Source of the DNA: an uncultured Methylococcaceae bacterium
GTDB lineage: Bacteria; Pseudomonadota; Gammaproteobacteria; Methylococcales; Methylomonadaceae
Length of the DNA: 32,466 nucleotides
NCBI GenBank assembly: GCA_903945375.1
Contig: CAJAVP010000090.1
Coordinates: 1-32,466, forward strand
Direction: 5' to 3'
The notes beneath the pieces were generated by a model. That model saw only the letters and a program-made list of their open reading frames with translations, ran no database searches and was not told where the DNA came from. Of this stretch, positions 2,891 through 26,689 are shown piece after piece. A program made the translations under genes and the position numbers. The first letter of the stretch is position 1. Each line of letters starts with the position of its first letter.

Positions 2891-5401
2891 ATGACGCAAT
2901 CACAACATCACAACACCCTCGACGAAGCACGCGAACTAATTACATCCATTCAAGGCAAATTGAATCAAATCTACGCCGTTGCACCGACGTTAAATGGAAA
3001 TAATACGATTAATGAGTCATTAATTCATTGTGCGACAGATTTCCAGCAAGCGGCTGAGAAATTAGCCCATCCCGCCTTACGCATTGCCACTATTGGTACA
3101 ACATCGGCAGGAAAATCGACTTTGGTAAATGGATTAATTGGACGGCAAATTGCACCAATGGATGCGGGCGAAATGTCTGCTGGTGTATTGCATTTAGTTC
3201 ACAGTAACAAACGTCATTTAAAAATCGACGCAGTTAAAGGTTTGTGGGATGGAATTGATGCCGCATATAAAGAAGATTCTGCTATTTACGAACATGTCAG
3301 AGAAAATATTTTTAAGGTTTATCATGAAGCGAAAAAAAATAAGACTATTCAAATACCTGAAATTCGAATTGAAGGTGAATTGTTGCCAGCCGCATGGACA
3401 GAGTTATTAGCATTACCTTCTGGGGTAAATGTTGAAATTTATGATCTTCCGGGTTTGAACAATATTAATGATAAGGAAAATATCAAAGTAATACAGAATT
3501 ATTTAAAACACTGTTTTTCTCTGGTTGTAATGAATTATTTGCACACAGATTCTGCAAGCCGTAAAGAATTATTTAAAGAAGTTAAAAAAATTGTAGATGC
3601 ACTAGGCGGAAAAACAGATGCGATGATTTTTGTTTTAAACGCGGTTGATGCTCGTAGTGAAACAGATAATCCGTTAGAAGATCGTATAAAAGAGTTTGCT
3701 AACGCGATACAACAAGAACTAAAACTAAAGGCAATACCTAATATAATTCCAGTAACCGCACGGGCATTATTTTATGCTCAATGCGCTTGGGGATGGAGCA
3801 ATCCCATAAGTGGTGAATCGGAAATGGACAAATATTTTCAAACAATACAGTTGAAAGGATTTCGTAAGGATTGTGCCTCTTTCATAGAAGAAAATGAGAC
3901 TGATGAAATAGAAAGCTGGCTACAAACTGTGAAGAAAGCACTAAAAGAAAACGATAAGTGCCTTCCTGCCGAGTTGTTATCAGAAGAAAACTTGAAAGTG
4001 TGGATTGAATGGACATGGCAGCACAGCGGAGGATTAAATTTATGGGGAGAATTGAGAAAACGTGTTGATGAACGTTTTGCAGAAATAGTCATAGCACCAA
4101 CATTGATTCAGCCATTAGCCAGTTTAGAAACATTGTTATCGAAATTAGATGACTACAGCAGAACTCAGCGTATTACTGACAAAGTTGATGTCGAAAAAAA
4201 GAAAGCAGAACTTCAACAAAAATTTGAGGAGTTACAATTTTTTTTGGAACAGGAAAGCCTAAAGTTCGAGGAACAAATAAGACTAACCGTCGAAAAAATG
4301 ACCGACGACACAATAAGAACAGATCCAGAAAAAAGAGACATCGTTATTAAAGAATTATTCGGTGCAACCGCAGATGATACAAGACTTATTGCAGCAGAAG
4401 AGGCGCTTCGGAATATTGTGCGTGACATTAAAAATGACTTGATTTTCAATATGATTGAACCCGTTCATGATTTTTATACCAACGAAAACACATCTAAAAC
4501 ATTGACAGAAGAATTAAATAAAATTTTAACACCAGAGCTTAGTGATTCAATAGTGGCAGCAGCAGAACGTTATGGAAAGCGAGCCATGTTTGGTAAAGCA
4601 GTCAAAGAAGGCATTGATAAAAAGGCTCTTAAAAGCAATGAATCAGATATTAATGAAATTAAGTCAATAGAAAATGCTGCGCATATTTTATTCAGAGAAA
4701 TGCGAGCGGGATTATCGGAGCGCGCTTCTTATCTATTACAAACTCGTGATTATGTGATGGAGGAATCGCTCAAAGTGTTGTTGGAACGCGGCATCGTTGC
4801 AACTGAGAAGCGCATTAGAGCAGAACTGCCAGAAGCGGCTGAAACACTGTTATTAATCTATAGACAGCGGGTTGCGAATGTCGATTTAGGCTCATTACCT
4901 GATGACGTTTTTGCATTAGGTAAAGTGGAGGTTGAAGATGCTGTAGAAGAAAAGACAACGACAATAGATAAAAAAGTGATAGAAAATGAGTATTATGAAG
5001 AAGGCAGTTGCTTCAAATCAAAACACACTATACAAGTAGAGCGTATTAAAAAAGTAGATGTCGTTGAAAATGTGGAAGTCGTCAGACTCAGCTTGCCTAA
5101 TGTCGAAGGTATGACATTAATATGGCAAGATGGCATTGAAAAAGCTGAAACCGCATTGTGGCGTGCCGTTGGAGAATGGTTTTCTCAATCTGCCAAGACG
5201 CAAAATCGATTATTTCAAGAAGCACTCAAAGACGCGCAAGCGCATTTGTTAGATTTATTTGTTCAAAGGCTAGAGCAAAGCGAAGCTGAGTATCAGATTA
5301 AACTCGCTGAACTTGAATATTTGGATAGGTTTTGTTCAAGTATCGTATTGGATAATGCTGCTTTGAAAAATGCGGCTAATATGAAGGGGGATATAAAATG
5401 A
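2891..5401 (+). CDS. Dynamin-like GTPase, 836 aa
   Basis: First gene of the operon. ATG at 2891 was chosen because AAAGGA sits 8 bases upstream; the in-frame ATG at 2783 would start before the hairpin and lacks a site. The GTPase domain shows G1 GTTSAGKS (residues 69-76), G3 DLPG (185-188) and G4 NAVD (250-253). A long helical body of about 450 residues follows, with coiled-coil character from about 440 to 540 and again near the C-terminus. This is the layout of bacterial dynamin-like proteins such as the CrfC/LeoA/BDLP groups, which hydrolyse GTP to assemble on or remodel membranes. There is no obvious transmembrane segment. The next gene overlaps by 4 bases (ATGA). The gene is AT-rich compared with those after 8772. 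Confidence 0.8.
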   Translation: MTQSQHHNTLDEARELITSIQGKLNQIYAVAPTLNGNNTINESLIHCATDFQQAAEKLAHPALRIATIGTTSAGKSTLVNGLIGRQIAPMDAGEMSAGVLHLVHSNKRHLKIDAVKGLWDGIDAAYKEDSAIYEHVRENIFKVYHEAKKNKTIQIPEIRIEGELLPAAWTELLALPSGVNVEIYDLPGLNNINDKENIKVIQNYLKHCFSLVVMNYLHTDSASRKELFKEVKKIVDALGGKTDAMIFVLNAVDARSETDNPLEDRIKEFANAIQQELKLKAIPNIIPVTARALFYAQCAWGWSNPISGESEMDKYFQTIQLKGFRKDCASFIEENETDEIESWLQTVKKALKENDKCLPAELLSEENLKVWIEWTWQHSGGLNLWGELRKRVDERFAEIVIAPTLIQPLASLETLLSKLDDYSRTQRITDKVDVEKKKAELQQKFEELQFFLEQESLKFEEQIRLTVEKMTDDTIRTDPEKRDIVIKELFGATADDTRLIAAEEALRNIVRDIKNDLIFNMIEPVHDFYTNENTSKTLTEELNKILTPELSDSIVAAAERYGKRAMFGKAVKEGIDKKALKSNESDINEIKSIENAAHILFREMRAGLSERASYLLQTRDYVMEESLKVLLERGIVATEKRIRAELPEAAETLLLIYRQRVANVDLGSLPDDVFALGKVEVEDAVEEKTTTIDKKVIENEYYEEGSCFKSKHTIQVERIKKVDVVENVEVVRLSLPNVEGMTLIWQDGIEKAETALWRAVGEWFSQSAKTQNRLFQEALKDAQAHLLDLFVQRLEQSEAEYQIKLAELEYLDRFCSSIVLDNAALKNAANMKGDIK

Positions 5402-6351
5402 ATTTAGATATAGCTAAAATAGCATATTCTGTAATTATGAATGAAGGTGAGAAAAATTTAAATGAAAAATTTAAAATTATTCTTGACGATGATCCTAAAT
5501 GGGAACGCATTCTAAATGCCCTGAAAAATACAGTTCTTAAAATTAAAAACATTGATTCTTTTACTGATGAAATAAAACCTCTATTAAAGGCAAATGAGGA
5601 AGACATTGATTATGATGATATAAAAAATAAGATTATTTATTTAATTAACCAAGCCAGTTTAGTAAAAATAATAGATAAAATTAACTCTAACCTTGTACCA
5701 GTTGATATTCTTACTGGTTCAAATGGGGAAAAGAAACTAACCTTTCAAATGGAACCAATGGTGACTCGTGTTAGATTTGAATACGTTAAACGTGAAAATA
5801 TTGGATGGCTAATCATCTTAGTTACCTATATCCAATCAAAGTATGGTATGCAGTCTAACGAAAAATTTTCTGAAACTTTTCTAACTCTTACAAAAGGATT
5901 ATTGAAACAAAAACCTTCAAATATTCTTCCATCAAATCAAACCATCGAAAAACAAAGCTCAGTTACAAGAAAAATAACTGCCAGTGAAGACCCTACAGTA
6001 CCACAAAAAAAATCCTTAGTGCTAGTTTTTGGGCAAAGCTATTTTGCTTCTGTAGACAATATGAACGAAAAAACAAATATCGATAATGACGACTTTCATT
6101 GGTTGATAAAGGGGGTTGAGTGGTATTGGTTTGGTAGTGATTTTGAAGAGCTTCCTAGTGATCCAAACGGTAATGTTTGTCTATTGAAGATAGATGTAAA
6201 ATCGAGTGAACAGGAAATATCTGGAAAAATACAACTTAAAAATTTATTGAAACAAATGACAGAACAAAAAATACCTCTTCTGCAAATTAAATCAAAACCT
6301 GGTGAGCGCTATCAATTAGCCAGTTTTAAAGATAAAGGCTTCCGTCAATAA
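5398..6351 (+). CDS. Hypothetical protein between two dynamin-like GTPases, 317 aa
   Basis: The start overlaps the previous stop by 4 bases (ATGA), suggesting translational coupling. I do not recognise a family. The N-terminal half (residues 1-180) looks helical and charged, with hydrophobic stretches such as ENIGWLIILVTYIQ near 140 that could be a buried helix. A Ser/Thr/Lys-rich linker (about 185-208) leads to a C-terminal domain from about 209 (SLVLVFGQSYF, HWLIKGVEWYWFG, GNVCLLKIDV) that looks like a compact alpha/beta unit. It has very low GC. Its place between two large GTPases suggests a partner or adaptor for them, by position only. Confidence 0.75.
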   Translation: MNLDIAKIAYSVIMNEGEKNLNEKFKIILDDDPKWERILNALKNTVLKIKNIDSFTDEIKPLLKANEEDIDYDDIKNKIIYLINQASLVKIIDKINSNLVPVDILTGSNGEKKLTFQMEPMVTRVRFEYVKRENIGWLIILVTYIQSKYGMQSNEKFSETFLTLTKGLLKQKPSNILPSNQTIEKQSSVTRKITASEDPTVPQKKSLVLVFGQSYFASVDNMNEKTNIDNDDFHWLIKGVEWYWFGSDFEELPSDPNGNVCLLKIDVKSSEQEISGKIQLKNLLKQMTEQKIPLLQIKSKPGERYQLASFKDKGFRQ

Positions 6352-6371
6352 TCAAATATAGGCAATTGAAA

Positions 6372-8759
6372 ATGAGTAACTGGCAACAAACCTGCGAACA
6401 ACAACGCAATCGTTTAGAAAAAACCGAAGTATTGGCAGACAAACTGCTGACATTATGCAGCAAAGCGCAAGCACATTTAACGCCTGAGATTATGCAAATC
6501 ATTCGTACCGAACGCCCAAGATTGGAACGCCAATTGGAACGTTTACGGGCTAATCGTTTTGAAGTCGCGGTCATTGGCCTAGAAAAAGCGGGCAAAAGTG
6601 CCTTGCTTAATGCGTGGTTGGGGCAGGAAATTTTACCATCGGCAAGAGAACGTTGCACTTTCACCAGCACTGAAATCTGGTCAGCAAAAACTGAACTAGA
6701 CCAATTGGTATCAATTCAGTATTACAGTCGTGATGAAATTTTGACTTTGCAAGAACAACGTAAAGCAGCTTTGAATAGTAGCTCAATTGGTGACAAAGAA
6801 AGAAAAGATATACAAGAGGATATTAACGATACTGAAAAAAATTTAAATGCTATTTTTGAATTTGCAAAACAAAGAGAGGGTTATAAACAAAGTTTTTTAG
6901 ATATTAGCGAAGTTTATGAAGTGCTCCAATCAGCGATTTTTAAAAATCGGGCTCAAGCATTGGCAATTAAATCTCTTCAAATTAAGACAGAAAAATTGCG
7001 GAATGATAAAGATATTATTTTTCATGATGTTCCAGGATTTAATTCGGGAGTTTTAATGCACGCAGAACAAGCAATTTCACGTTTGAAAATTTGTGACGCG
7101 ATTATTTACGCCAAAGAAATGAAGCAGCCTTCAATTACTGGCCCAGAAAGGGAAATGTTACTTATTGCAGACGCTGAAGAAACTGGCTTGAAAGTCTCAG
7201 ATAAAATTTTTGTTGTACTTACTCAAGCTGACGGGCTAGATGATCAAATTGATTTCCAAGAAACCTTAACAAAACATAAAGACTTTTGGCCTGATGTACC
7301 AGAGTGTCGGCTATTACCTGTTTGTGCAAGATCACATTTAGTGGAGTTTGGTATTCCCTCTGATGATACTTTGCGCCGTTCTAAAAATGCGGATGATAAA
7401 ACTAAACTCCAAAAACTAGGAATTAGCGATGGTATCAATGAGTTAAAAAATGCAGTTAATTTTTACATTGACAATGAAAGGTCGGCTGTGTTGGTTAAGC
7501 GATGTGATTTTTGGGTTGATAAAATAAAAAAACAAGCGTTGCAAGTTTTAGAAATTTTAGAGCCAATTTATAATCAAGCTATTGATAATAATACAGATGA
7601 AGATGATTTGTTTGGTGAAGACTTTGGTAAATGGTGGGGTAGTGAATGGGCAAGAATTAGACAAGATTTTATAACTTGGGGCGTTGCTAACATTGATGGT
7701 CGTTCGGATACTGATGGCTATGGAAAAGAACATACGAAATTAACTGAATTGCGAAAAGCTTACAATGATGGGGTAAATGCCTTGTTTGCTAATTTGAAAG
7801 AGGCAAAAATAGAAAACATGAGACTGACTTACACGGAAGGAGGAACAAAATTAGTCCCTGTTCCGGCTCATGGAAACAAGGCAATTCGAGAAAAGTTGTA
7901 CTCAGAAATTCAACGCATTTTACAAACAGAGTTACCTAATCAATTAACGGGATCGCTAAAAGCAATTACTGACGAAATAGTCAGTAAAGCCAAACAAAGT
8001 TTGTATGACATTGATGATGTTGAAAGAATTTTACTTGATAGCCCTGCGATCGTTGAGCAACAAATTCGTCATGGATTTAAGACATTGTTCTTGCGCTTTG
8101 GACGAGTTGCGGCTGATGTTTTCATTGCGCTGCCTTTGCATGAGCGCCCACGATTGTTAGAAGAGTATGAAGCCGAAATACTCACACTGGAAGCTTTCTA
8201 TGAAGGTAACGACAAAAAAACTAAAGGTAATTTGGCTGATTATTTACGCGCTGGTTTGTGGGTAGTTAAAGCGGCAAGTGCCATTGGTGTTGTACCGCCT
8301 ATTGTCGGCAAAGGTATCAAGGCAACTGAAAAACTAGGTAGTATTGCGGAAATGATTAATACGCCCAAAAATTCGGGCCCTGTTTTTGATCCATTTCTAA
8401 AATCTCCACATCCGGCAGATGGTGATGAAACATACCATGAGCCTAAAGATTTTGAAGGCGTTGTTGAGGAAATTGAAGGTGATTTGGTTGCATTGCAAGA
8501 CTATCTACAAAATAGTGTATTTCGTGCTGCCGGTTTTATCACTTACTCCAAGCAGGAATTACAGCAAATTCGTGATCGTTTTATCGAGTTGGAAGAAAAA
8601 GAACGCCGCTGGGATGCAATAGTTCGACGTGAAGCCAAACGCCAAAATTCTAATGTTCCTTTTAAAATTCATAATCGTATTGAAGACTTTAGGTTGCGAA
8701 GAGAGATTGCGTTAGAAATACAAGAAATGCTCGCCTATTTAAGCCATGAAATTTATTGA
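6372..8759 (+). CDS. Second dynamin-like GTPase, 795 aa
   Basis: ATG at 6372 is preferred to the in-frame TTG at 6366; the ribosome binding site is weak either way. Motifs are G1 GLEKAGKS (residues 69-76), G3 DVPG (219-222) and G4 TQAD (284-287). The G1 position is identical to that of the first GTPase, so the two share an architecture. A long insertion between G1 and G3 is rich in charged helix. The C-terminal third includes an apolar segment (about 620-660: LADYLRAGLWVVKAASAIGVV and on) that could be a lipid-binding paddle, as in bacterial dynamin-like proteins. Such proteins often occur as unequal pairs that work together, which matches the arrangement here. Twelve bases separate it from the next gene. 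Confidence 0.8.
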   Translation: MSNWQQTCEQQRNRLEKTEVLADKLLTLCSKAQAHLTPEIMQIIRTERPRLERQLERLRANRFEVAVIGLEKAGKSALLNAWLGQEILPSARERCTFTSTEIWSAKTELDQLVSIQYYSRDEILTLQEQRKAALNSSSIGDKERKDIQEDINDTEKNLNAIFEFAKQREGYKQSFLDISEVYEVLQSAIFKNRAQALAIKSLQIKTEKLRNDKDIIFHDVPGFNSGVLMHAEQAISRLKICDAIIYAKEMKQPSITGPEREMLLIADAEETGLKVSDKIFVVLTQADGLDDQIDFQETLTKHKDFWPDVPECRLLPVCARSHLVEFGIPSDDTLRRSKNADDKTKLQKLGISDGINELKNAVNFYIDNERSAVLVKRCDFWVDKIKKQALQVLEILEPIYNQAIDNNTDEDDLFGEDFGKWWGSEWARIRQDFITWGVANIDGRSDTDGYGKEHTKLTELRKAYNDGVNALFANLKEAKIENMRLTYTEGGTKLVPVPAHGNKAIREKLYSEIQRILQTELPNQLTGSLKAITDEIVSKAKQSLYDIDDVERILLDSPAIVEQQIRHGFKTLFLRFGRVAADVFIALPLHERPRLLEEYEAEILTLEAFYEGNDKKTKGNLADYLRAGLWVVKAASAIGVVPPIVGKGIKATEKLGSIAEMINTPKNSGPVFDPFLKSPHPADGDETYHEPKDFEGVVEEIEGDLVALQDYLQNSVFRAAGFITYSKQELQQIRDRFIELEEKERRWDAIVRREAKRQNSNVPFKIHNRIEDFRLRREIALEIQEMLAYLSHEIY

Positions 8760-8771
8760 TCAGATATCATT

Positions 8772-9953
8772 ATGAATATCCTCAACAACTGGACATGGAA
8801 AGGCTTGGGCGACGCGCTGTTTAGCCCAAAAGCAAACGGCCTGGAAGCCAAAATCAACGAAGTGAAACAACGCTTACCCCTGCCTGTTTTTTGGTTGCTG
8901 GGTAAAACGCAGGCGGGCAAGACCTCGCTGATCCGCGCACTGACGAATAGTGATGCGGCAATCATTGGCAATGGCTTTCAGGCGTGTACCAAACGGTCGC
9001 AATTTTATGATTTCCCATCAGCCAGCCATCCGATCTTGCGTTTTCTCGATACGCGCGGTTTGGGTGAAACAGCCTATAATCCTGATGAAGATTTGGCGTG
9101 GTGTGCTAATCAAGCCCATTTGTTAATCGTGGTGCTTCGGGCTACCGACATGAACCAAGCCGAGGTGCTGGATACCGTCAAAACCATTCATGCCAAACAT
9201 TCTGGCTGGCCTATTATCGTGGTGCAAACCGCTTTACATGACGGCTATCCATCCACGGGTAGCCCGCATATCCAACCCTATCCCTATCAACAAACACCCA
9301 TTCCATCCTCTGTACCGCATGGTCTGACGCAGGTTTTGCTGCATCAGCGCGATTGGTTTAAAGGTATTCCGGTGCATTTTGTGCCGGTTGATTTTACCTT
9401 GCCTGAAGATGGGTTTGAGCCTGTCAATTACGGGCTGGAAGCCTTATGGGATACCATTGAAAGCGTGTTGCCTATTGGGGTGATCGGTCTGTTGCGCGGC
9501 TCTGATCTGTATAAGGAATGGCAGGATTTTTATGCCGGACAAGCGCATCCGCATTGTGTCGGTTACGCGCTGCTGAATTTAGGATTGGGCGCAGTGCCGG
9601 TAGCGGGCGTGGCTTTGGCTTTAGCGGTACAAGCTAAGTTATTCCATAGTATTGCGTCCATTTACGAACTGGAGCTAACCCCTAGGCGGTATGCTGAATT
9701 TACCACGCTGATGGGTGCGGGTGTGATCGTTGGCCTGTTAGGGCGAGAATTGCTGGGCTTGGTGCCGGTATATGGCTGGGCGGTAGCGGGTGTTTATTCG
9801 GGGGCAATGACCTATGCCTTGGGTAAGGCGTTTTGTGTGTATCTGCATGGCGTTAAAAAAGGGGCATTGCCTGATCATGCCTTGCTGAAACAAGCGTATA
9901 ACGAGGCGTTTGGTCATGCACGGCAGTTCTTAAGACAAAAGGAGCGTAATTGA
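8772..9953 (+). CDS. DUF697/YcjF-like membrane GTPase, 393 aa
   Basis: The N-terminal P-loop GTPase domain has GKTQAGKT (residues 44-51) and DTRG (93-96). The usual G4 [NT]KxD is replaced by a VVQTALHD segment, which this family tends to show. From about residue 250 there are two long apolar stretches (YALLNLGLGAVPVAGVALAL and GAGVIVGLLGRELLGLVPVYGWAVAGVYSGAM) typical of the DUF697 C-terminal domain that inserts in or lies on the inner membrane. No ribosome binding site is evident. The gene is clearly richer in G and C than the three before it. It overlaps the next GTPase gene by one base (TGATG), so the two are probably translated together. Confidence 0.85.
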   Translation: MNILNNWTWKGLGDALFSPKANGLEAKINEVKQRLPLPVFWLLGKTQAGKTSLIRALTNSDAAIIGNGFQACTKRSQFYDFPSASHPILRFLDTRGLGETAYNPDEDLAWCANQAHLLIVVLRATDMNQAEVLDTVKTIHAKHSGWPIIVVQTALHDGYPSTGSPHIQPYPYQQTPIPSSVPHGLTQVLLHQRDWFKGIPVHFVPVDFTLPEDGFEPVNYGLEALWDTIESVLPIGVIGLLRGSDLYKEWQDFYAGQAHPHCVGYALLNLGLGAVPVAGVALALAVQAKLFHSIASIYELELTPRRYAEFTTLMGAGVIVGLLGRELLGLVPVYGWAVAGVYSGAMTYALGKAFCVYLHGVKKGALPDHALLKQAYNEAFGHARQFLRQKERN

Positions 9954-11476
9954 TGCTATTTTCACGTTTTGGGGTTGTTATCGGACTGGTGTTTTTGCTG
10001 CCTTGGCTGGCTTTAATTGGCTTGGGCGGTTACTGGCTCTGGCAACACGGCTGGCTTTATCATGCTGTGGGTATTTTGTCCGCTAATTTTGCGCTGGTTT
10101 ATGCGTTGTTGCATTGGTGTAAAAAACCCAATGAGTCCTTAGTTTTTAATCCAATTGACATCCAGGCCAATCCGAATTGGCCGGATGATGCCAACGCTGC
10201 ACGGGCCGAGCTTGAGCCGATTAACGCCCGTTGGCAAACAGAAACCGATGTGTTGACTAACCCTAGCAAAGCCTTGGCGTTGACGAATGAAGTGCTGACC
10301 AAAATTGCCCGGCACTTTCACCGTGATTCCCCATACCCTGTTTTGGAATTTCCGCTGCCGGATTTGCTTAAATTGGTGGCCTTGGTGTGCAATGATATTC
10401 AACATGAGGTGTTGGACAACATTCCTGGTAGCCATGCCTTTAAGGTCGGTGACTTTTTACGCGCCAAACAAGCGGTTGACACCTTGAACAAATTTAAGTC
10501 CCTTTTTAATGTCGGCAATTGGCTGTTCAACTGGCCTGGGGCGGCAATGGCTAAGGCACGAGGCATCTTATTCAGCAAGGGAGTCAATACGGTTGCCAAT
10601 GAAATATCACAGCGTTTGATTCGGGCTTATATCGACAAGCTGGGCTACTACGCGATTGAATTGTACAGTGAGCAAATCAGCCTGGATGACAGCTTGCCAA
10701 CTGAGCGTATTAGCCCTTACTCAGGAGAGGATATTGACAAGATTGCCGAACGCGGGCAACAGCAAGAACCCTTACGGCTGCTGGTGATTGGTCAGGTTAG
10801 CAGTGGTAAATCCAGCTTGATCAATGCGTTATTCGGCGAAATGAAGTGTGCGGAAGGGCCATTGCCGACCACTTCAGAAATCACACCTTACTTGCTCGAA
10901 CGTGATGGCCTGCAACAAGCCATTGTGCTGGATACCGCCGGTTATGGTGGATTGACGCATCCTCAAGCCTCAACGGTTTTAAAAACTGAATTAAAAAAAG
11001 TGGATGTGATTTTAATGGTTTGTAATGCCGCACAAGCCAGTCGTGCTGCGGATGCCGGGCAATTGCAGGTTATCCGTCAGTATTTTCAAGCCGAGTGCAG
11101 TAATCAAGCCTTGCCGGTGATCATCGGCGTGGTGACGCATATTGACCGCTTACGTCCAGCACAGGAATGGCTGCCGCCTTATAATATCCAAGCGCCCGAT
11201 AACGCCAAGGCAAATAACATTCAGCAAGCGTGTTCGGTTATAGCAAACGAGCTGGATTTACCCTTAAATCACATTGTCCCCGTTTGCCTTGCTCCAAACA
11301 AATCCATCTACAATATCGAAGATGGCCTGATCACATTGATTCAGCAAGAGTTTAAGGCCATGCAACGGGTGTATTATTTGCGCTGTTTACGCCTGCAACA
11401 AGCAGAAAGCTACTGGCAACACTGGAGAAAGCAGGCATTGCAAGCAGGACAAGCCGTTTTAAAAGTAAAAATTTAA
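9953..11476 (+). CDS. Membrane-anchored P-loop GTPase, 507 aa
   Basis: ATG at 9953 overlaps the previous stop by one base and has AAGGAG at 9939-9944; the TTG at 9950 is an alternative. Two transmembrane helices lie at the N-terminus (about residues 4-28 and 35-55), followed by a helical linker of about 220 residues and a C-terminal GTPase domain with GQVSSGKS (280-287), DTAG (327-330) and THID (395-398). This is the HSR1/50S-binding GTPase superfamily. With the upstream DUF697 GTPase it forms a pair of inner-membrane GTPases, an association seen elsewhere in accessory DNA. The exact function is unknown. The WYL-GGDEF gene follows 12 bases later. Confidence 0.85.
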   Translation: MLFSRFGVVIGLVFLLPWLALIGLGGYWLWQHGWLYHAVGILSANFALVYALLHWCKKPNESLVFNPIDIQANPNWPDDANAARAELEPINARWQTETDVLTNPSKALALTNEVLTKIARHFHRDSPYPVLEFPLPDLLKLVALVCNDIQHEVLDNIPGSHAFKVGDFLRAKQAVDTLNKFKSLFNVGNWLFNWPGAAMAKARGILFSKGVNTVANEISQRLIRAYIDKLGYYAIELYSEQISLDDSLPTERISPYSGEDIDKIAERGQQQEPLRLLVIGQVSSGKSSLINALFGEMKCAEGPLPTTSEITPYLLERDGLQQAIVLDTAGYGGLTHPQASTVLKTELKKVDVILMVCNAAQASRAADAGQLQVIRQYFQAECSNQALPVIIGVVTHIDRLRPAQEWLPPYNIQAPDNAKANNIQQACSVIANELDLPLNHIVPVCLAPNKSIYNIEDGLITLIQQEFKAMQRVYYLRCLRLQQAESYWQHWRKQALQAGQAVLKVKI

Positions 11477-11488
11477 TCGAGAAGCCTC

Positions 11489-12775
11489 ATGAATCTGAGT
11501 CCAGCCGAAGCCCTTCTTTTTCACTTGGCAAACCGCTATTTGCGCCAGCTCATGCCCGCCGAGTATCTGGACGAACTGCAAGGACGCTTCAATGAAGCCG
11601 AGCGGCAAGTCAACGCCCATCCTGAAACAGCGGAGTGGAGCCAACGGGTGTTATGGCTGTCGCATTGGGATGGCGTATTGTCCAACCACCCCCAGCCGGA
11701 TGCCACCGTAGCAATGTTGTCCACGGCCTTGCTGCATAACAAACAAGTCAGTATCCACTATCAGGGCAAGTACACCCCCTTTAACTTCAACTTGTTCGGC
11801 TTGGTCAAGCGTGACCAAAATTTGTTGGTGGTGGGTTCTTACTGGCAACACAACGACCCGTTTGTGCTGTCCGTGCGTAAGATTCTGGCTGTGGAGTTGA
11901 CCGATCACCCCGCCATCCAGCCCGCGCCGGATTTTGACCTGCAAGATTTTCTGCACCGGCAATTGAATTTTCCGCACACCCAGGTAAAACTTCAGTGCCT
12001 GCAAATTGAGTTTTCTGAGGATATGCACAGCTATGTCCTAGACCATGCCCTTGAAGCCGACCAGTTCCATATCACGGCTCCGGCAGATTACCATCACATC
12101 GGCTATTTTTTGCTGGAAGCCCGTGGCGTTGTTGATGGCGAGCGTCTGCGCCAGTGGATCAGTGGTTTTAGCCATAAGGCACAAGTGTTGAAACCGGATG
12201 AGCTGCGTTTGGTGATGGAGCAGGCGCGGTTGGACACACGCACCAACTTGTTTACGGCGACTGAATTCAAGCGTTGTCTGAAACGGGAAATCCAACGCTG
12301 CCTGCGTGATCCACACATGACTTTTGGCTTGCTGATCCTTGATCTGGATCATTTCAAGCTGGTCAATGACCATAATGGCCATGATTTTGGTGATAAGGTG
12401 CTGTTGCAAGTGGCTAATTGCATCCGCGACTATGATGAGGCTGCGCGGCATGGCGGGGAAGAATTCAGCATCCTGCTACCCGATACCAACGCAGCCGAGG
12501 CCTTGGTTATTGCCGAACGTATCCGGAAGAAAATTGAGCAACAAACGTTACAAAATGGGGAGGGTAATGTCGTCCCAGTAACCACCAGCATTGGTCTGGC
12601 GGTTTACCCTGATGATTTGCCAACCGAGCTAAAGGCTCTAATTGGGCAAAACAGGGATATTGCGGAATTAAGTGGGTTGGTGCTTGAAAACATTTTTCAT
12701 CAGGCCGACCAAGCACTTTACCAAGCCAAGGAACAAGGGCGGAATCGGGTTTGTTTGGCGGCTAATCTAATCTAG
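11489..12775 (+). CDS. WYL-GGDEF fusion, probable diguanylate cyclase, 428 aa
   Basis: Residues 1-75 resemble the helical lead-in of WYL proteins, and 80-150 the WYL sensor fold (QVSIHYQG, NLFGLVKRDQNLLVVGSYW, LSVRKILAVEL). No helix-turn-helix is present, so this is a WYL regulator stripped of DNA binding. From about 265 there is a full GGDEF domain: DLDHFKLVND, NGHDFGD, then GGEEF at 322-326, and later TTSIGLAVYP and ADQALYQAKEQGRNRV. RDYD at 313-316 sits five residues before GGEEF, which is the c-di-GMP product-inhibition I-site. Catalytic residues look intact, so it should make c-di-GMP. A stretch of about 30 residues before ADQALY is longer than usual. WYL domains sense nucleotides or nucleic acids in several defence regulators, so a ligand-gated cyclase is my inference. 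Confidence 0.88.
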   Translation: MNLSPAEALLFHLANRYLRQLMPAEYLDELQGRFNEAERQVNAHPETAEWSQRVLWLSHWDGVLSNHPQPDATVAMLSTALLHNKQVSIHYQGKYTPFNFNLFGLVKRDQNLLVVGSYWQHNDPFVLSVRKILAVELTDHPAIQPAPDFDLQDFLHRQLNFPHTQVKLQCLQIEFSEDMHSYVLDHALEADQFHITAPADYHHIGYFLLEARGVVDGERLRQWISGFSHKAQVLKPDELRLVMEQARLDTRTNLFTATEFKRCLKREIQRCLRDPHMTFGLLILDLDHFKLVNDHNGHDFGDKVLLQVANCIRDYDEAARHGGEEFSILLPDTNAAEALVIAERIRKKIEQQTLQNGEGNVVPVTTSIGLAVYPDDLPTELKALIGQNRDIAELSGLVLENIFHQADQALYQAKEQGRNRVCLAANLI

Positions 12776-14745: not shown

Positions 14746-16689
14746 TTATACAAAATCCATAAAGTCAATCATGCCTTCTTGCGCACCAGGCTTATATGTG
14801 CCATCAATGGTCTCCTCCTCGTGCTTAAGAATCTCAGCTTTAATAGCATAAAAACGGGTATTTGACTCTCCAGAAATAGTTGGAACAGTGTGGCGTGTTT
14901 TGAACTGATCTTTGTCACGCACCAGATAACCGTGTTCATGCAGTGTCCGACAAACCATTTTGAGGTCAAAACCCACACACGCCTCACGGAAACCTGACTC
15001 GTTAAAAAGGTAAAATTCCCCGACAAAAAGGCTAGAGTCTCCAACGGTGTAATTTTTGTGATAGCCAATCATCCGATTTGGAATTGTTGATGCGGGCAAT
15101 AAAGTGACCACATAAAAACGGTTCAAATTACCCATTATGAAATCCCGTATTTTGGCGACACCACGTGCCTTGTCGGAAACATTGCTGTTGTCTTCAACCC
15201 AAAGGTTAAAAACATAGTGAACACTATCGGTAACTTGCCTTTTGCTGAACGGCAAGATATCAAAGTCAACAGCAAATTCCCCGGCAGCTTGTACCAAGCC
15301 AAAGCGGGTCGCAACCCGTTGTTGCGCTTCGCTCAGATTCCGCGATGCCACTAGGTTGTCATAACAATTATGCATGGCTGTGGTTACTAACTCACAAAGT
15401 TTTTCATGGCTTGCCGTTATTTTCAGCAGACCCTCAATTAACGCTGGCATGGCCGTGCCATAATTCTTTGAGCAATCGTTTTTCATTTGATCAGCGAATT
15501 GTTTCGCCGTAAGGTTGCCTGTGTGTGGGAATATTCCCTCTGGAGGAACAGGTATGTCAAGTACGCGGATCAGTTGACCGCCTTTTGCTTCGCCTTTTTC
15601 CTCAATTTTTTCCCGAGCTGATTTCTCGCCGGTACTGTAGCCATGTAAAGTCCATGAACGTGCTTCGCGGATTGTGCGGTCTGACTTCAGTGAGGCCTTA
15701 CCTTGACCGCCAAAAATATTGTAGGCCACAGCACCCACGTCATTAGCCGTACATTTTCCAATCTCATCTAAAGGCAGCATAAGATTATTATACGCAGCAC
15801 AGGTGCCTTCCAAACCATTTGCAGTAGAGTTCCATGTACGGATAGCGGTCAATTTCGGACTGGCCGAAGGATCGGCACCACAACCGAATGTCGAGGTGGC
15901 GATTTGCAGCGTGGTTGTCTTTCCCTCAGTGGTTATCCCGTAATTGTGAATCGCAGCAGAATCCATACCTGCCAATGGCAACAAGGGCGATGCTAACCCC
16001 CACATAATGCCGAAGGCGGGAATAGGATTTTCAGCAACGGGTTTAGCTACTTTGATTTTCCAATCGCTCAATGACCCTTTAGAATGTATGGTGTTGGTGG
16101 TAGCCGAATTTCTTTCGGGCTGATAAACACACCGCTCGCTACCATTACGCGTGATAACGTGGTTAACGAAGGCAAAGTCACCTTGACTTGTCCAGCCCAG
16201 ATTTTTCACGCAATTCTCCTCCTCTGTTATCTTAAATTCCGCCAACATACGCAAAAAATTGCTTTGAAGACCTGGAATGGCCATAAATCCTTTATCGGAA
16301 AAATCCGAAATTAACCCTCCACCTTGCTCATAGAGACGTGGCAATCCAATATACACAATGTGCTCGATGCCTGACTTATTAATAAATGCCGTCTTAAGGC
16401 CGTAATTCTGTCCGTCAAAATCATGAGTGCCAGCGAGTACTGCAATGGGTCCGCATATTTTTTGGTAAGCGATTTCCCCTTTTCGGGTTATTTTTTCGAT
16501 GTATGTGGCATTCGCTGTGACCTTAAAACCATCAGGGATGTTTTGTTCAATCTTAGCCCACGGGCAAGGCGCGTCATCAGATGCACGGGCATTAGTTGTT
16601 GTTACTATATCGTTATTACTGCTGCCAACGCTGAATGTCTTTGGCTCTATATCAAGCCAGCTTAAGAGTTTTGAGAGGTTGTTATTCAT
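14746..16689 (-). CDS. DUF927-type replicative helicase, 647 aa
   Basis: The protein shows the DUF927 pattern seen in replication proteins of plasmids and genomic islands. An N-terminal domain (residues about 45-210, including LGWTSQGDFAFVNHVI at 164-179) leads to a P-loop ATPase: Walker A GITTEGKT (251-258) and Walker B LMLPLDEI (303-310). The remaining C-terminal 300 residues hold GESxxxFY-type words and are less clear. It is expected to unwind DNA at the element origin. Its start overlaps the upstream PrimPol stop by 8 bases, so the two are translationally coupled, as expected for a primase-helicase pair. Downstream lies the long hairpin. Confidence 0.85.
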   Translation of the reverse strand: MNNNLSKLLSWLDIEPKTFSVGSSNNDIVTTTNARASDDAPCPWAKIEQNIPDGFKVTANATYIEKITRKGEIAYQKICGPIAVLAGTHDFDGQNYGLKTAFINKSGIEHIVYIGLPRLYEQGGGLISDFSDKGFMAIPGLQSNFLRMLAEFKITEEENCVKNLGWTSQGDFAFVNHVITRNGSERCVYQPERNSATTNTIHSKGSLSDWKIKVAKPVAENPIPAFGIMWGLASPLLPLAGMDSAAIHNYGITTEGKTTTLQIATSTFGCGADPSASPKLTAIRTWNSTANGLEGTCAAYNNLMLPLDEIGKCTANDVGAVAYNIFGGQGKASLKSDRTIREARSWTLHGYSTGEKSAREKIEEKGEAKGGQLIRVLDIPVPPEGIFPHTGNLTAKQFADQMKNDCSKNYGTAMPALIEGLLKITASHEKLCELVTTAMHNCYDNLVASRNLSEAQQRVATRFGLVQAAGEFAVDFDILPFSKRQVTDSVHYVFNLWVEDNSNVSDKARGVAKIRDFIMGNLNRFYVVTLLPASTIPNRMIGYHKNYTVGDSSLFVGEFYLFNESGFREACVGFDLKMVCRTLHEHGYLVRDKDQFKTRHTVPTISGESNTRFYAIKAEILKHEEETIDGTYKPGAQEGMIDFMDFV

Positions 16690-17458
16690 AGCCTAAAACC
16701 TCCGCCAGTCTTTTTAGAGCCGTGACAGGCTTGTTGCTGCTAATGGCATCGGCAGTCGATTGAACGGCTTTTACTCTCATGCCAACTTCATCGTCTCCGG
16801 CTGCTGTTGCAAGAGTGCTGACAAAGTGTGTCGTCTCGTCCGTTGTCCAGCCGCCTTTGAGTAAAGTGCCAGACAGGGCAAGTGCAAAATCTTGGCGAGT
16901 ACCTTGTGCGGGGTAATTGCGAAGCAATAAACACGCGGCTGCAAGCCGTTTTGCCCGATTGACCAAATCGTCCCCGTTAATGGTGCTTAGGTTTTCGTCT
17001 GCTGAAGTGAACTGGATCAGCTCGCCTGACGGATGGGTGCTGGGTGGAAATACGGTTTGGCTGCCTGTTGATCGGATTTCCAATAGGACGGACTCCTTAC
17101 CATCCGCATTCTTGGCTGAAAATTTCATGGTTTTAGGGAGATCATCTAATGTCTTGAATATCCAGTGCGAAACAGGTTTGCTTGCTCGTCCAAAGGTAAT
17201 CGTGCCAGAAAGAAAGCTGGGGGCGAGCACAATAGCTTCTTGACAATCAAGGTCGATATCGACAATCCCGCCCGAAGGCTCACCATTCAGGATGCCTATA
17301 TTCATGAGTTGGTGAGATGGATAATATTGAGGGATATCATCACTCTTGATGCGTAAGTCTTGCCATCTAGGGATAACTGGTGCTTTCTTTTTGAAAGGTA
17401 CTGGGATAGTTGCAAGACCCGCGTTTGCGTAATTCAATGCGTACTCTGGGATGCTCAT
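16682..17458 (-). CDS. Bifunctional primase-polymerase (PrimPol) domain protein, 258 aa
   Basis: ATG at 17458 was chosen because it overlaps the AlpA-like stop by 4 bases (ATGA); an in-frame start at 17491 would extend into that gene. The N-terminus YALNYANAGLATIPVPFKKK is the typical opening of the prim-pol domain. The metal-binding acidic motif appears in GGIVDIDLDCQEA, the conserved His in PVSHWIFK, and the later VFPPSTHPSG block completes the set. It should lay down primers for element replication. It is short (258 aa) compared with forms carrying a fused helicase; here the helicase is the next gene. Confidence 0.85.
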   Translation of the reverse strand: MSIPEYALNYANAGLATIPVPFKKKAPVIPRWQDLRIKSDDIPQYYPSHQLMNIGILNGEPSGGIVDIDLDCQEAIVLAPSFLSGTITFGRASKPVSHWIFKTLDDLPKTMKFSAKNADGKESVLLEIRSTGSQTVFPPSTHPSGELIQFTSADENLSTINGDDLVNRAKRLAAACLLLRNYPAQGTRQDFALALSGTLLKGGWTTDETTHFVSTLATAAGDDEVGMRVKAVQSTADAISSNKPVTALKRLAEVLGYE

Positions 17459-17634
17459 GCTGCACCACCCTTGCATTTGGTGGCAACCCAAGCATCAAGC
17501 TGGGCTTGAGTCCAAGCTACGGTATTAGGTCCAAGTTTAACGGGTTCGGGAAAATGCCCAGACCTAACCCATCGCCAGATCGTCGAGCGTGATTTTCCTG
17601 TGGTACTACAGATTTCTTTGTAAAATATAAACAT
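17455..17634 (-). CDS. alpA: AlpA-family helix-turn-helix regulator, 59 aa
   Basis: The ATG at 17634 is supported by GAGG a few bases upstream on the minus strand; longer in-frame starts to 17748 add a non-conserved leader. The product has the AlpA/excisionase fold: a helix-turn-helix IYKEICSTTGKSRSTIWRW-type region (one residue differs here, FYKEI), then SGHFPEPVKLGPNTVAW and a closing AQLDAWVATK. AlpA proteins regulate integrase expression and excision in P4-like elements. It leads the PrimPol-helicase unit, overlapping the next gene by 4 bases, so it probably controls its own operon as well. Confidence 0.88.
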   Translation of the reverse strand: MFIFYKEICSTTGKSRSTIWRWVRSGHFPEPVKLGPNTVAWTQAQLDAWVATKCKGGAA

Positions 17635-17958
17635 TGTTGGCCTCAAATATGAAAAAATGAAGCCGGCGTAGGCATTACTGCCTATGGGCGAAGTCAATTT
17701 AGGCTTATGTCTAATTAAGACTAAATTGCACGATTTGAAAAGCACCACTGAAACAATACAGCGGTGTAGACACAGAATGGGATAGTTTCATCGCCGGTTT
17801 TACCGGCAAGCTGGTCACATGACCAAAACTCGGCAAGAATTTTACAGCAAAATAGAATTGTCGCCAAATTTTTTTTGCCTCATTGGAGAAGTTGGGTAGT
17901 GAGAAGTTTTCAATGTCTGGTTGGATTGCCTTACTGGACTTGACGATTTAGCAGGTAT
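17635..17958. promoter_or_regulatory. Control region between alpA and fic, with two palindromes
   Basis: The 324-base gap has no gene. It contains GCCGGT/ACCGGC (17793-17798 with 17802-17807, TTT loop) and, five bases on, TGGTCA/TGACCA (17812-17817 with 17820-17825, 2-base centre). The second looks like an operator half-site pair. Since alpA is read leftward from here, its promoter should lie in the region. The palindromes are candidate binding sites for AlpA or a host repressor. The rest shows nothing further that I can name. Confidence 0.45.
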
Positions 17959-18723
17959 TCAGTCGCCAATTTTTATTGTACCCACAACAGCCAGCACCCT
18001 TTCCATCATCGCAATAACATATTGGGCTATCAACAATAAAAACGGGTTCTTATTCCCTGTCAGGTTACAGATTTCCAACGCATCATAATAAGACAGGCGG
18101 CTCTCTGTATCTCCTGGAATATTGGCGATAGGGTAGCCATTCTGTAACAAAATCAAGTTCATCACCAAGCGTGCGGTGCGGCCATTGCCATCGATGAAAG
18201 GGTGGATGGTGGCAATACGTTCATGCAGTTCCGCCGCAAGCAATACCGGATGTAACGCATGACGTTCGCTGTCATACCAAGCCAAGCAATCTTCCATCAG
18301 TACGGGGACTTGCCAAGGCTGTGGTGGGATATGACGGCTACCGCTAATCATTACGGGCACTCTCCGATAGTGGCCTGCATTCTCCCGATCAATGCCACGC
18401 AGGATCAATCCATGCAATTGGCAGATCAGTGTTTCAGTCAAAGGTGAAGAGTGCTGCACCAGCTCCCGTAACCATAGTACCGCTTCATAATGGTTAATGG
18501 CTTCTAGATGTTCCCGCATTGATTTCCCTCCCACGGTAAGCCCTTTATGAATGATCAGGTCAGTTTCCCGCAGGGTCAACGTATTGCCTTCAATGCGGTT
18601 GGATTCGTAGGTGTATTCAATATCAAGTGCCTGTAATATGCCGGGATACTGTAACGGCCTGGCTTGATCCAATTGGGCTTTGAGGACATCCATATCATGG
18701 AGTAAAGCCTCTAACACTGTCAT
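17959..18723 (-). CDS. fic: Fic-domain protein with N-terminal inhibitory motif, 254 aa
   Basis: The active-site loop HPFIDGNGRTAR lies at residues 174-185 with all key residues of an AMP-transferring Fic enzyme (catalytic His 174, Asp and Gly-Asn-Gly-Arg). An N-terminal S-x-x-x-E-G motif (Ser 41 to Gly 46, SNRIEG) is the self-inhibiting helix of class II Fic proteins, whose Glu blocks the ATP site until displaced. Family members add AMP to protein Thr, Tyr or Ser; the target here is unknown. Its start overlaps the integrase stop by 4 bases (ATGA), so the two are co-translated. It may act as a self-contained regulator or toxin on the element. Confidence 0.92.
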   Translation of the reverse strand: MTVLEALLHDMDVLKAQLDQARPLQYPGILQALDIEYTYESNRIEGNTLTLRETDLIIHKGLTVGGKSMREHLEAINHYEAVLWLRELVQHSSPLTETLICQLHGLILRGIDRENAGHYRRVPVMISGSRHIPPQPWQVPVLMEDCLAWYDSERHALHPVLLAAELHERIATIHPFIDGNGRTARLVMNLILLQNGYPIANIPGDTESRLSYYDALEICNLTGNKNPFLLLIAQYVIAMMERVLAVVGTIKIGD

Positions 18724-19928
18724 AGCGTTTCCGCCTCTTGTCGTGGCGCAGCTTCTGTTGGTTGTGAGAGTATCTGGTTGAGCTTATCGCACCATTGTTC
18801 GAGTGCCTCACGTTTTTCTGAGTCATACGAATGGCGGTCGTACACCGCCGTAATGCCGCTTTCAATATGGTTGAGGATTTTTGACACCGTGAGCCTTGGC
18901 ACACCCAAACTGGTCATGTAACTGGCAGCCGTCCGGCGCAAGTCATGAGGTGTAAAGGGTGGGATGGCAAACTTTGCCTCATTCTTATGTAAGGCATGGT
19001 CAATGCTGGTGTCCAAGATGGCTTTATCTCCCTTGCCGGAAGGGAATAACCAACGTGATTGCCCAGAAAGCAATTTAATCTGTTCAAGCAGCCCTAAAGC
19101 TAACGGTGATAATGGGACACGATGGGATAGTTTGTTTTTGGCTTTCTCATTGGGAACTGTCCACCAGCCATTAGTCAGATCAAACTCGCTCCATTCGGCA
19201 ATGACAATTTCACCTTTGCGCTGTGCCGTCACCAATTGGAACTTTAGGCACAATCGGGTCAGTTCACTCATGGAGGCCGACTCAAGTCCATGCCAGAATA
19301 GGCGGATTTCATCTTCAGTTAAGACACGATCTTTCCGGTTCTCTTTGGCAGGCATTTTTACGGCAGCGCAAGGATTGGCTTCCATCAGGTCACGGCTGAT
19401 CGCCCAATTGAACAGCTTGCGTAACAAAGCCAAGGTCCGGTTCGCTTGGATGGGTGCGCGTTGGACAATGGTGTCTAACAGATTAATTATGTCACGGCGT
19501 TTTATTTCATGGGCTTTGACCGTTTTCCATTTGGGCAGCAGATCATAATCGAGTATGCGTTGGTCTTCTTTCCATGAGCGTTTGTTGGCTTTGGCATAAA
19601 GTTCAATATACTGCCCCGCTATTTCACCAAAGGTTGGCGCACCCCGATTGATCTGTTTTTCTGTGGCAGGATCATTGCCTATGGCTGCCTCATGCAGCAG
19701 CTCTTTGGCTTTTTCCCGGGCATCCGCCAAACCTAATGTAGGATAAGTGCCCAACGTGTAACGGCGCAAGCGTCCAGCATGGCGGTACATGACAAACCAG
19801 CTTTTTCGGCCTGCTGATGAAAGTCGTAAGCCTAAACCGGTGGTGCGTTCGTCAAAAAAATCTATCTGCCCCTTTTCAGGCAGTTTGACAGCATCAATCC
19901 AGCGGTTAGTAAACGAACAGGTAGGCAT
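18720..19928 (-). CDS. int: P4-type tyrosine integrase, 402 aa
   Basis: The N-terminal arm-binding domain (DUF4102, residues about 1-85: FFDERTTGLGLRL, RRYTLGTYPTLGLADAR) is followed by a core-binding domain (97-180) and a catalytic domain with Arg 237 (TAQRKGE), His 328 and Arg 331 (HDLRR), His 354 and nucleophile Tyr 363 (AVYDRHSY). All catalytic residues are present, so the enzyme is expected to be active. Members commonly use the 3' half of tRNA genes as targets; the tRNA fragment 620 bases from the start fits this. The short gap to the frameshifted higA suggests a common minus-strand transcript. Confidence 0.95.
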   Translation of the reverse strand: MPTCSFTNRWIDAVKLPEKGQIDFFDERTTGLGLRLSSAGRKSWFVMYRHAGRLRRYTLGTYPTLGLADAREKAKELLHEAAIGNDPATEKQINRGAPTFGEIAGQYIELYAKANKRSWKEDQRILDYDLLPKWKTVKAHEIKRRDIINLLDTIVQRAPIQANRTLALLRKLFNWAISRDLMEANPCAAVKMPAKENRKDRVLTEDEIRLFWHGLESASMSELTRLCLKFQLVTAQRKGEIVIAEWSEFDLTNGWWTVPNEKAKNKLSHRVPLSPLALGLLEQIKLLSGQSRWLFPSGKGDKAILDTSIDHALHKNEAKFAIPPFTPHDLRRTAASYMTSLGVPRLTVSKILNHIESGITAVYDRHSYDSEKREALEQWCDKLNQILSQPTEAAPRQEAETL

Positions 19929-20638: not shown

Positions 20639-21107
20639 GCCTTGAATTTTTCCAGCACTTGTATATTACTTGTTGAAAAAAAATTTGTGGTCGCCCTTTA
20701 CCTAAAAATACAGGCAAGTGTTGCGGAATTATTTTTGTAATTGAGATATTTTTTTCATTCCTCAACTCATAAGCAATCCTCTTCCTAAATCCTGCAATCA
20801 AATACCTAACAAACTTCAAAACCACTGATAATCAAGAAGATAATATCAGCTTCTTCAAAATCACCCCCAAAACAGCCCACAAGCAAACGGTATGGTCAAA
20901 ATATCCCTAACAATGACAGGATTACCGCACTTATTACCGAGGAGCAGTGAAAATCAAAACATCTTGTTTGGTTTTTAGAGCTTGCAGGATTTAGGTTCTA
21001 TATGGATACTCTGTGACTCGTTTTAGTGAATAGCTAATCATATCTATCATCTCGCCCCATTGCCTACGGTCGTGGAAATAATACGATCATTACCCAAAGG
21101 ATTTTTA
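20639..21107. other. Intergenic region upstream of the Zorya operon
   Basis: No gene is supported; a 70-codon minus-strand frame at 20613-20825 overlaps the terminator and looks random. A distant inverted pair CAGCACTTG (20653-20661) and CAAGTGTTG (20715-20723) is present. The zorA promoter should lie here, but only weak matches are visible (TTGCAG at 20984 with GATACT at 21005, spacing 15). AAAGGA at 21096-21101 is the zorA ribosome binding site. Confidence 0.5.
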
Positions 21108-23885: not shown

Positions 23886-23888
23886 ACC

Positions 23889-24614: not shown

Positions 24615-24623
24615 GAGAAAAAG

Positions 24624-26372: not shown

Positions 26373-26443
26373 TTAAATCATTCGACCGCAAAAGTCTGAT
26401 AATACCTTTCATGTACAATCAATTTATTAGCGAGAATAACCCT

Positions 26444-26689
26444 ATGTCTATTTTATCAAGCCACGGCGATGTCCACATCCCCGACTATCTTATCCATGCA
26501 CTGGGCTTAAAACCGGGTGTCGAGCTAGCGCTTGAACGCCAAGGCGACGCGATTGTGATGCGTCCGGTTAAAACAAATAAAAGCTCACGGGTTGAAGAGG
26601 GGCCAAAAATTTTGGCTTATACCGGAATGACAGTTAGCTTAGAAGAAATGGACGATGCTATTGCCAAAGGCGCGGTGCAATCACTGTGA
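26444..26689 (+). CDS. vapB: VapB-type antitoxin (AbrB/SpoVT fold), 81 aa
   Basis: ATG at 26444 was chosen since family similarity begins with SILSSHGDVHIPDYLIHALG; the earlier in-frame ATG at 26411 has no ribosome binding site. The first 45 residues form an AbrB-type swapped-hairpin DNA-binding domain (VHIPDYLIHALGLKPGVELAL, then VMRPVK), and the C-terminal part would wrap the toxin. Such antitoxins neutralise the PIN toxin and repress their own operon. A possible -10 box GATAAT at 26398-26403 could give the pair its own promoter. It overlaps vapC by 4 bases (GTGA). Confidence 0.88.
   Translation: MSILSSHGDVHIPDYLIHALGLKPGVELALERQGDAIVMRPVKTNKSSRVEEGPKILAYTGMTVSLEEMDDAIAKGAVQSL

Follow-up and report, generated by a model that had tools for sequence, protein, structure and literature searches.

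A WYL-linked operon of dynamin-like and predicted membrane-anchored GTPases in a Methylococcaceae bacterium: a candidate defence system

Do two dynamin-like GTPases, a protein of no known family, two further GTPases and a nucleotide-signalling enzyme, all encoded in one tight row, belong to a single system, and might that system act in defence? The question is raised by positions 2891-12775 of a 32,466-nt stretch of DNA (the window), which is contig C90 (CAJAVP010000090.1) of the 3.59 Mb genome G000 of an uncultured Methylococcaceae bacterium. Open reading frame (ORF) calling finds six ORFs there, all on the plus strand and packed head to tail. A first-pass annotation, made from the sequence alone, had described six same-strand genes with overlaps or gaps of 20 bases or less; the spacings are −4, 14, 12, −4 and 12 bases, that is, 4-base overlaps and gaps of 12-14 bases. 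We refer to the first three genes (DLP1, middle protein and DLP2) as the trio, or module 1, to the next two (GTP3 and GTP4) as the pair, or module 2, and to the sixth as WYL-GGDEF (Table 1). Trio and pair are also neighbours in several related genomes, which makes a single system that acts on membranes, perhaps against phages, the probable reading.

The recurrence was observed in an order-level sample of 201 Methylococcales genomes. DLP1 is rare in this sample, with matches in eight genomes (E-value 1e-20), and in each of the eight it is followed by a protein of 265-338 aa and then by DLP2. The trios fall into two types: type A (the window, L109 and L110, to which G441, cut by the end of its contig, adds part of a DLP2) and type B (L029, L030 from Methylobacter psychrophilus Z-0021, L073, L074 and L076). 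Trio and pair adjoin in five of the eight genomes (G000, G369, G391, G397 and G464), and in the cut locus of G441 DLP2 and the pair are adjacent. The trio precedes the pair in the window and in G441, as far as the cut locus goes, and follows it in L110, L029, L030 and L076. In L110 a type-A trio occupies the place that the type-B trio has in L029, flanked in both by the same helix-turn-helix (HTH)-WYL, pair and NERD-helicase genes. GTP3 lies within 6 kb of DLP1 in five of the eight trio genomes, with a rough chance value of 9e-14; it is present in seven of the eight DLP1 genomes versus 57 of the 193 others (Fisher p 0.0016), and a close GTP3 (at least 66% identity) in six of eight versus 17 of 193 (p 3e-5). 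These statistics are optimistic because the genomes are related. The complete six-gene set was seen in this species only, in the window and in L014, a contig of a lake Methylococcaceae metagenome-assembled genome (MAG) with 99.9-100% protein identity to the window (from which we take the order to be Methylococcales); the L014 contig breaks off inside WYL-GGDEF. At L078 the row DLP2-GTP3-GTP4 is not followed by a WYL-GGDEF gene. The refuting condition of the first-pass annotation, no co-occurrence of these genes in other genomes, was checked and did not refute its proposal, which is partly supported: trio and pair recur together in both orders, with a WYL protein near five of the eight trios, and the full set was seen in no other species.

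How the two modules came together can be read in part from a tree of GTP3. The window and G441 group with L118, a pair without a trio (support 100/98), and L110 groups with three type-B loci (100/100). A single clade of the six trio rows was rejected (p-AU 5.7e-45) because L118, which has no trio, groups with L078. Two independent joins, considered as the plain reading of the tree, were dropped as such, seven rows including L118 being a possible clade. One join with one loss (L118) and a changed gene order, or two joins, are both possible histories on these sequences.

The composition of the operon also breaks inside it: G+C at third codon positions is 30, 22 and 28 for DLP1, the middle protein and DLP2 versus 52, 51 and 59 for GTP3, GTP4 and WYL-GGDEF, and because of this step after DLP2 the operon looks like two joined modules. 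In L109 and L074 the trio is likewise AT-rich in comparison with its flanks (37 versus 44% and 48 versus 58% GC, respectively).

All four proteins announced as GTPases carry G1 and G3 motifs (motif scan) together with a Pfam match above cut-off. Dynamin_N scores 62.2 bits in DLP1 and 44.2 bits in DLP2 (curated cut-off 27), which with the two motifs makes both proteins bacterial dynamin-like; MMR_HSR1 scores 33.1 bits in GTP3 (cut-off 21.9) and 42.9 bits in GTP4. A pattern scan found no standard G4 motif in GTP3, and its DUF697 match (18.3 bits) lies under the cut-off of that family. The description of the pair as inner-membrane GTPases agrees with hydropathy, by which GTP4 has two N-terminal hydrophobic segments, one strong and the other weaker, and GTP3 has hydrophobic helices. 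For DLP1 an alternative ATG lies upstream at 2783; the start at 2891 has an AAGGAC-like ribosome site (by eye).

The middle protein had been described as an unknown protein between two dynamin-like GTPases, and at the limits used it matched nothing in Pfam, PADLOC, PHROGs or NCBIfam. Its pairing with DLP1 was complete in the genomes searched: the type-A form is present in exactly the three type-A DLP1 genomes (3/201) and the type-B form in exactly the five type-B genomes (5 of 16 searched). The two trio types have diverged strongly (DLP1 of the window and of L030 share 23% identity); type-B middle proteins have a hydrophobic segment and type-A ones have none, and a direct profile comparison of the two forms was not significant. 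A single-sequence AlphaFold model of the middle protein reached a pLDDT of only 34. Outside the order, a Nostoc conjugative plasmid, the one DLP1 match among plasmid records, encodes a DLP1 relative (29.5% identity over 803 aa), after which come a 282-aa middle protein that has a hydrophobic segment, then a JukB-like protein and Hma genes. For the hidden Markov model of either type of middle protein, this 282-aa Nostoc protein is the best non-member among 1442 ORFs, a weak link (E-values 0.0078 for type A and 0.00098 for type B). In a sample of the phylum DLP1 was found in its own genome only (1/398, the order being thinly drawn in that sample); a search of 198 genomes from the phylum to which the Desulfobulbus locus belongs, made with no positive control, gave no DLP1. 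Phage records gave no DLP1 match, and no DLP1 relative was confirmed in the viral contigs searched.

A few irregular copies were seen among these genes. In Crenothrix (L134:5496-7253) a type-B DLP1 near a contig end is broken by an internal stop and looks decayed. In L076, positions 4126-4302, between the middle protein and DLP2, repeat incompletely the C-terminal portion of the middle protein. Under the ORF rule used, the 704-aa DLP1 of L073 (5943-8057) has no ATG, GTG or TTG start before its P-loop region, its frame being open further upstream. On the Nostoc plasmid (L129:11977-23795) DLP1, the middle protein, the JukB-like protein and HmaC/HmaB stand nearly in a row.

DLP2 has a wider distribution than DLP1. 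Relatives occur in 44 of the 201 order genomes, mostly at 56-62% identity (in G363 the type-B form only), and in 11 of the 12 genomes of the genus searched; G000 itself carries a single copy on C12. Neither DLP1 nor GTP3 adjoins any of the 14 mapped single-copy loci (L059-L072), and plasmid records gave no DLP2 match. In a tree the four trio-A DLP2s make one clade (95/93) inside an unresolved set with the single copies, and the type-B DLP2s make a separate clade (100/100); this placement suggests that the DLP2 of trio A either arose from the chromosomal lineage or is its sister. The cousin at L059-L072 is in itself a dynamin-like protein conserved in a single methanotroph group, apart from the trio genes.

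The pair is commoner than the trio: GTP3 has matches in 64 of the 201 genomes, with at least 66% identity in 23 and about 41-51% in the others. In a named genome collection it was found at 25 loci, mostly of Methylococcales, with others in Desulfobulbus, Desulfofustis and Phycisphaerales. GTP4 directly follows it in nearly all mapped loci, the exceptions being L025 (none seen), L035 (one ORF between) and L037 (ambiguous). Five Vibrio plasmid records match GTP3, four of them over 24% of its length. A predicted structure of GTP3 (pLDDT 66.9) gave a Foldseek list topped by IRG chains (TM about 0.35). This hint of a bacterial IRG, in which helical domains would flank the G domain, is not distinctive in VIA-align, where the IRG rows are tied with many other GTPases, and we did not adopt it; a literature search on IRG gave nothing relevant among the matches listed. 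In three Methylobacter genomes (L016, L018 and L034) the pair sits behind the same upstream genes, so that some pairs look vertically kept. A sibling MAG (L038:3-2224) holds a second, diverged copy made of a partial GTP3, GTP4 and the start of WYL-GGDEF, the match to the last stopping after about 113 residues.

The sixth gene had been announced as a nucleotide-signalling enzyme. Its product matches GGDEF (PF00990) at 122.6 bits (cut-off 23.8) and keeps the GG[DE]EF signature as GGEEF, and on sequence it is a diguanylate cyclase family member. The N-terminal part is less plain in Pfam, where WYL (17.8 bits, cut-off 21.8) and WCX (19.5 bits, cut-off 23.9) both fall below threshold; the PADLOC WYL model matches residues 69-243 at 58.4 bits (2.5e-16). 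This region aligns with HTH-WYL proteins, the window protein having no HTH and carrying the cyclase. A WYL protein is found near five of the eight trios: WYL-GGDEF downstream in the window, and in L029, L030, L074 and L110 an HTH-WYL protein encoded on the same strand about 0.2-1.6 kb upstream. In L029 and L030 small ORFs intervene. No HTH-WYL was seen at L073 or L109, and the contig of L076 stops about 1.2 kb upstream. Around the seven trio loci other than the window, PADLOC WYL models match 5 of 55 neighbours, versus 0 of 70 around single-DLP2 loci; for NERD+UvrD the counts are 3 of 55 versus 0 of 70. These sets were scanned for 55 of 56 trio-locus neighbours (A5, the one omitted being a middle protein), for 70 of the 148 listed single-DLP2 neighbours from 6 of 14 loci (A7) and for 69 of 72 in A6.

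Relatives of WYL-GGDEF of about 430 aa were found on C60 of G000 itself (73% identity), in G415 (74%) and, at 37-49%, in five more cases. In G415 (L112) the gene lies on the same strand as an upstream LeoABC/Eleos-like GTPase operon. That region (L112:9263-15722) has three GTPases with LeoA or LeoBC matches, a gap, a small membrane-like ORF and then WYL-GGDEF; one of its genes matches LeoA at 3.1e-26 over residues 35-508. WYL-GGDEF matches 4034 plasmid records, none spanning 80% of the query, so the plasmid matches are to GGDEF only.

Is the operon, then, a member of a known system? Membership in Eleos/LeoABC would call for LeoA and LeoB/C matches over most of the length, and the matches of the window proteins to these profiles are confined to the G domain or its vicinity: DLP1 at 17-244 of 601 (LeoBC), DLP2 at 10-100 of 559 (LeoA), GTP3 at 82-179 of 601 and GTP4 at 48-142 of 559, in contrast to a 518-aa protein of L112 that spans 51-543 of 559 (LeoA). 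The operon shares with Eleos/LeoABC several dynamin-like GTPases encoded side by side, and a LeoA-like operon precedes the close WYL-GGDEF relative in L112; it differs in adding the middle protein, the GTP3-GTP4 pair and the WYL protein. It is most likely related to Eleos/LeoABC in kind, not by membership. Dynamins and Eleos are grouped together in an excerpt of PMC11811056. The DynA protein of Bacillus subtilis is likewise dynamin-like and, in the part of PMC8844932 available, is reported to delay phage lysis; it is one fused protein (PMC4159319, in excerpt), and the two window DLPs score 31 and 44 bits against a DynA family cut-off of 1600. Tandem bacterial dynamin genes are called common in the same excerpt. 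Such pairs (e.g. PDB 5owv) resemble the operon in that two dynamin-like proteins have neighbouring genes; what sets the window apart is the dedicated protein in the middle, and solved dynamin structures gave no close sequence match to the window DLPs (best E-values 0.0009 and 0.002, near the P-loop only). DO-GTPase/GAP1 systems, predicted to act in conflicts according to an extract of PMC7159879, resemble the operon as GTPase-centred, partly membrane-associated gene sets; as described in that extract, they are built on GAP1 and a separate TRAFAC GTPase family, the window having had no GAP1-specific search. Among the literature matches listed, which cover few subscription journals and no preprints, no publication describes the six-gene set. 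As to the sixth gene, BrxR and CapW are WYL regulators of defence loci, for which this kind of control is typical, and DriD is another WYL protein with a role assigned to it. BrxR and CapW are resembled in the WYL-WCX-like region and in the HTH-WYL proteins near four relatives of the operon; the window protein differs in having no HTH and a cyclase domain at its C-terminus.

The explanation we prefer, for which belief and doubt are about evenly balanced, is a WYL-controlled, membrane-acting multi-GTPase defence operon, horizontally assembled from modules. The genes and their context suggest the defence role: in line with the defence-island setting that the first-pass annotation had named as supportive, known defence genes adjoin the trio or its relative, namely Zorya in the window and Hma with the JukB-like protein on the Nostoc plasmid. 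In the proposed mechanism DLP1 and DLP2 would assemble with each other on the inner membrane, and the middle protein would be their dedicated adaptor or anchor. The membrane-anchored pair would be a GTP-dependent switch or platform by which the dynamin assembly is recruited or licensed. Control may lie with a WYL protein, the nearby HTH-WYL in the four relatives and the WYL-cyclase that lacks a DNA-binding part in the window. There, a nucleotide or DNA signal of infection could act through WYL-GGDEF to raise cyclic di-GMP, and the output would be membrane remodelling by which damage is sealed, phage egress blocked or the infected cell killed. What was observed is the genes and their motifs, the recurrence of trio and pair as neighbours, the pairing of DLP1 with the middle protein in the genomes searched, the WYL proteins close by and the defence genes around; from these we infer complex formation, membrane action, the phage trigger, the cyclic di-GMP output and its target; the cyclic di-GMP step is the weakest link and the least supported part of the proposal.

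Several findings weigh against this explanation. Three of the eight trios have no pair beside them. No pair was seen at L109 or L073, G363 has a distant GTP3 (47%) far away, and in G388 the pair lies at the start of another contig. A branch of the GTP3 tree can set off seven rows, L118 among them, from the others (support only 11/50), so that a single origin of the join with one later loss is possible. Counted by locus, the WYL difference is 4/7 versus 0/6 (p 0.07), and one of the five WYL matches (L030) lies about 2 kb past the trio, downstream on the opposite strand. The trio is not compositionally distinct in L029, L030, L076 and L110, because these loci are AT-rich throughout. The G000 genome has 36 matches to the WYL-GGDEF query, most via the GGDEF domain, which makes an operon-specific cyclic di-GMP doubtful, and no cyclic di-GMP receptor was recognised in the operon. 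The first-pass annotation had itself allowed that the genes could belong to separate families found independently, and part of this is seen: 27 of the 33 GTP3 tree rows have no dynamin mapped beside the pair (some on short contigs), most DLP2 relatives are solitary chromosomal genes with no trio near them, and WYL-GGDEF adjoins multi-GTPase operons in two lineages only (window and L112), the C60 paralogue and the five 37-49% relatives showing none. The recurrence of trio beside pair is on the other side. Lastly, counted by members, defence genes are not clearly more frequent around the pair alone (A10, 130 neighbours, best 25 of 67 families) than around the single-DLP2 control (A7, 70 neighbours, 8 families). 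There were strong individual matches (DpdE, DpdF, ZorD and PsyrT), but as the member counts did not clearly differ we do not use this comparison as evidence.

Some of these findings would also fit other explanations. Trio and pair could be one real system with WYL-GGDEF as a passenger, a separate diguanylate cyclase at the operon end; we consider this possible and on balance doubtful. The C60 paralogue away from GTPases, the five more distant relatives elsewhere (two near ATP-synthase-like genes, by eye) and the L078 locus all suit a passenger, which would have to be reconciled with the gap of only 12 bases after GTP4, the second GTP3-GTP4-WYL-GGDEF start in L038, the position of the L112 protein behind a different GTPase operon on the same strand and the HTH-WYL proteins near four other trio loci. 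Rather doubtful to us is a role outside defence, in an envelope-stress or vesicle-release machine of LeoABC type that rides on mobile elements. Typically defence-associated WYL regulation speaks against it, as do the rare and patchy occurrence of DLP1 and the Zorya, Hma and JukB-like genes that adjoin the trio or its Nostoc relative. LeoABC has been linked to vesicle-associated secretion (PMC4159319, in excerpt), and the DLP2 relative, widespread in the genus and mostly away from the trio, suggests a housekeeping membrane role of that lineage. Improbable, in our judgement, is a meeting of two unrelated operons by chance or through shared insertion sites in a defence island: the step in composition, the occurrence of each module alone and a possible single origin of the join would agree with it, and adjacency in five of eight trio genomes, in both gene orders, argues against it.

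Were the WYL-controlled defence operon real, a two-module architecture with WYL control would be added to the poorly understood dynamin-type defence systems, a bacterial dynamin pair would have a dedicated partner protein, and WYL signalling through cyclic di-GMP in infection would become testable. A bolder version, unlikely as it stands, is a new immune type in which dynamins and an anchored GTPase pair work under interchangeable WYL sensors, one lineage having turned the regulator into a cyclic di-GMP alarm enzyme, so that cyclic di-GMP would be an anti-phage signal to membrane GTPases.

Table 1. Features of the window, with coordinates in nucleotides of the whole stretch
Feature	Coordinates	Strand	Basis or remark
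DLP1, dynamin-like GTPase, 836 aa	2891..5401	+	Dynamin_N; rare family, defines trio
DLP1 P-loop GTTSAGKS	3095..3118	+	motif scan
Middle protein of trio, 317 aa, no known family	5398..6351	+	profile libraries
DLP2, second dynamin-like GTPase, 797 aa, trio-A clade	6366..8759	+	Dynamin_N; tree
DLP2 P-loop GLEKAGKS	6576..6599	+	motif scan
GTP3, GTPase, C-terminal half helical, weakly DUF697-like	8772..9953	+	MMR_HSR1
GTP3 P-loop GKTQAGKT	8901..8924	+	motif scan
GTP4, N-terminal hydrophobic segments, then GTPase domain	9950..11476	+	MMR_HSR1; hydropathy
GTP4 P-loop GQVSSGKS	10790..10813	+	motif scan
WYL-WCX-like protein without HTH, fused to diguanylate cyclase domain, signature intact	11489..12775	+	Pfam, PADLOC, alignment
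RxxD (RDYD) at I-site position of WYL-GGDEF	12425..12436	+	motif scan
GGEEF catalytic motif of WYL-GGDEF	12452..12466	+	motif scan
Prim-Pol primase, Fic, tyrosine integrase of mobile element	16682..19928	-	Pfam
Zorya type I-like cluster ZorA, ZorB, ZorC, ZorD, extra genes between ZorB and ZorC	21060..32107	+	NCBIfam, Pfam

The rest of the window has a mobile character. At 811-1482 a match to PHROG 253 (annotated as Mu Gam-like end protection, E-value 7e-40) marks a phage- or plasmid-type left flank. The minus strand at 14746-19928 holds a satellite-like set of DUF927, Prim-Pol, Fic and integrase genes (Pfam), perhaps the mobile element that carries the island. The Zorya cluster beyond it is divergent: ZorA1, ZorB1, ZorC and ZorD stay under their equivalog cut-offs with long matches (for ZorD, 1124 bits where 1500 are required), and a subfamily cut-off of 250 is exceeded by ZorA (384). 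Its ZorB and ZorC are separated by a Sel1/Lcl_C gene (24624-26372) and, at 26686-27093, a PIN-type toxin-like gene that is preceded by a short antitoxin-like ORF, the last two recognised by eye.

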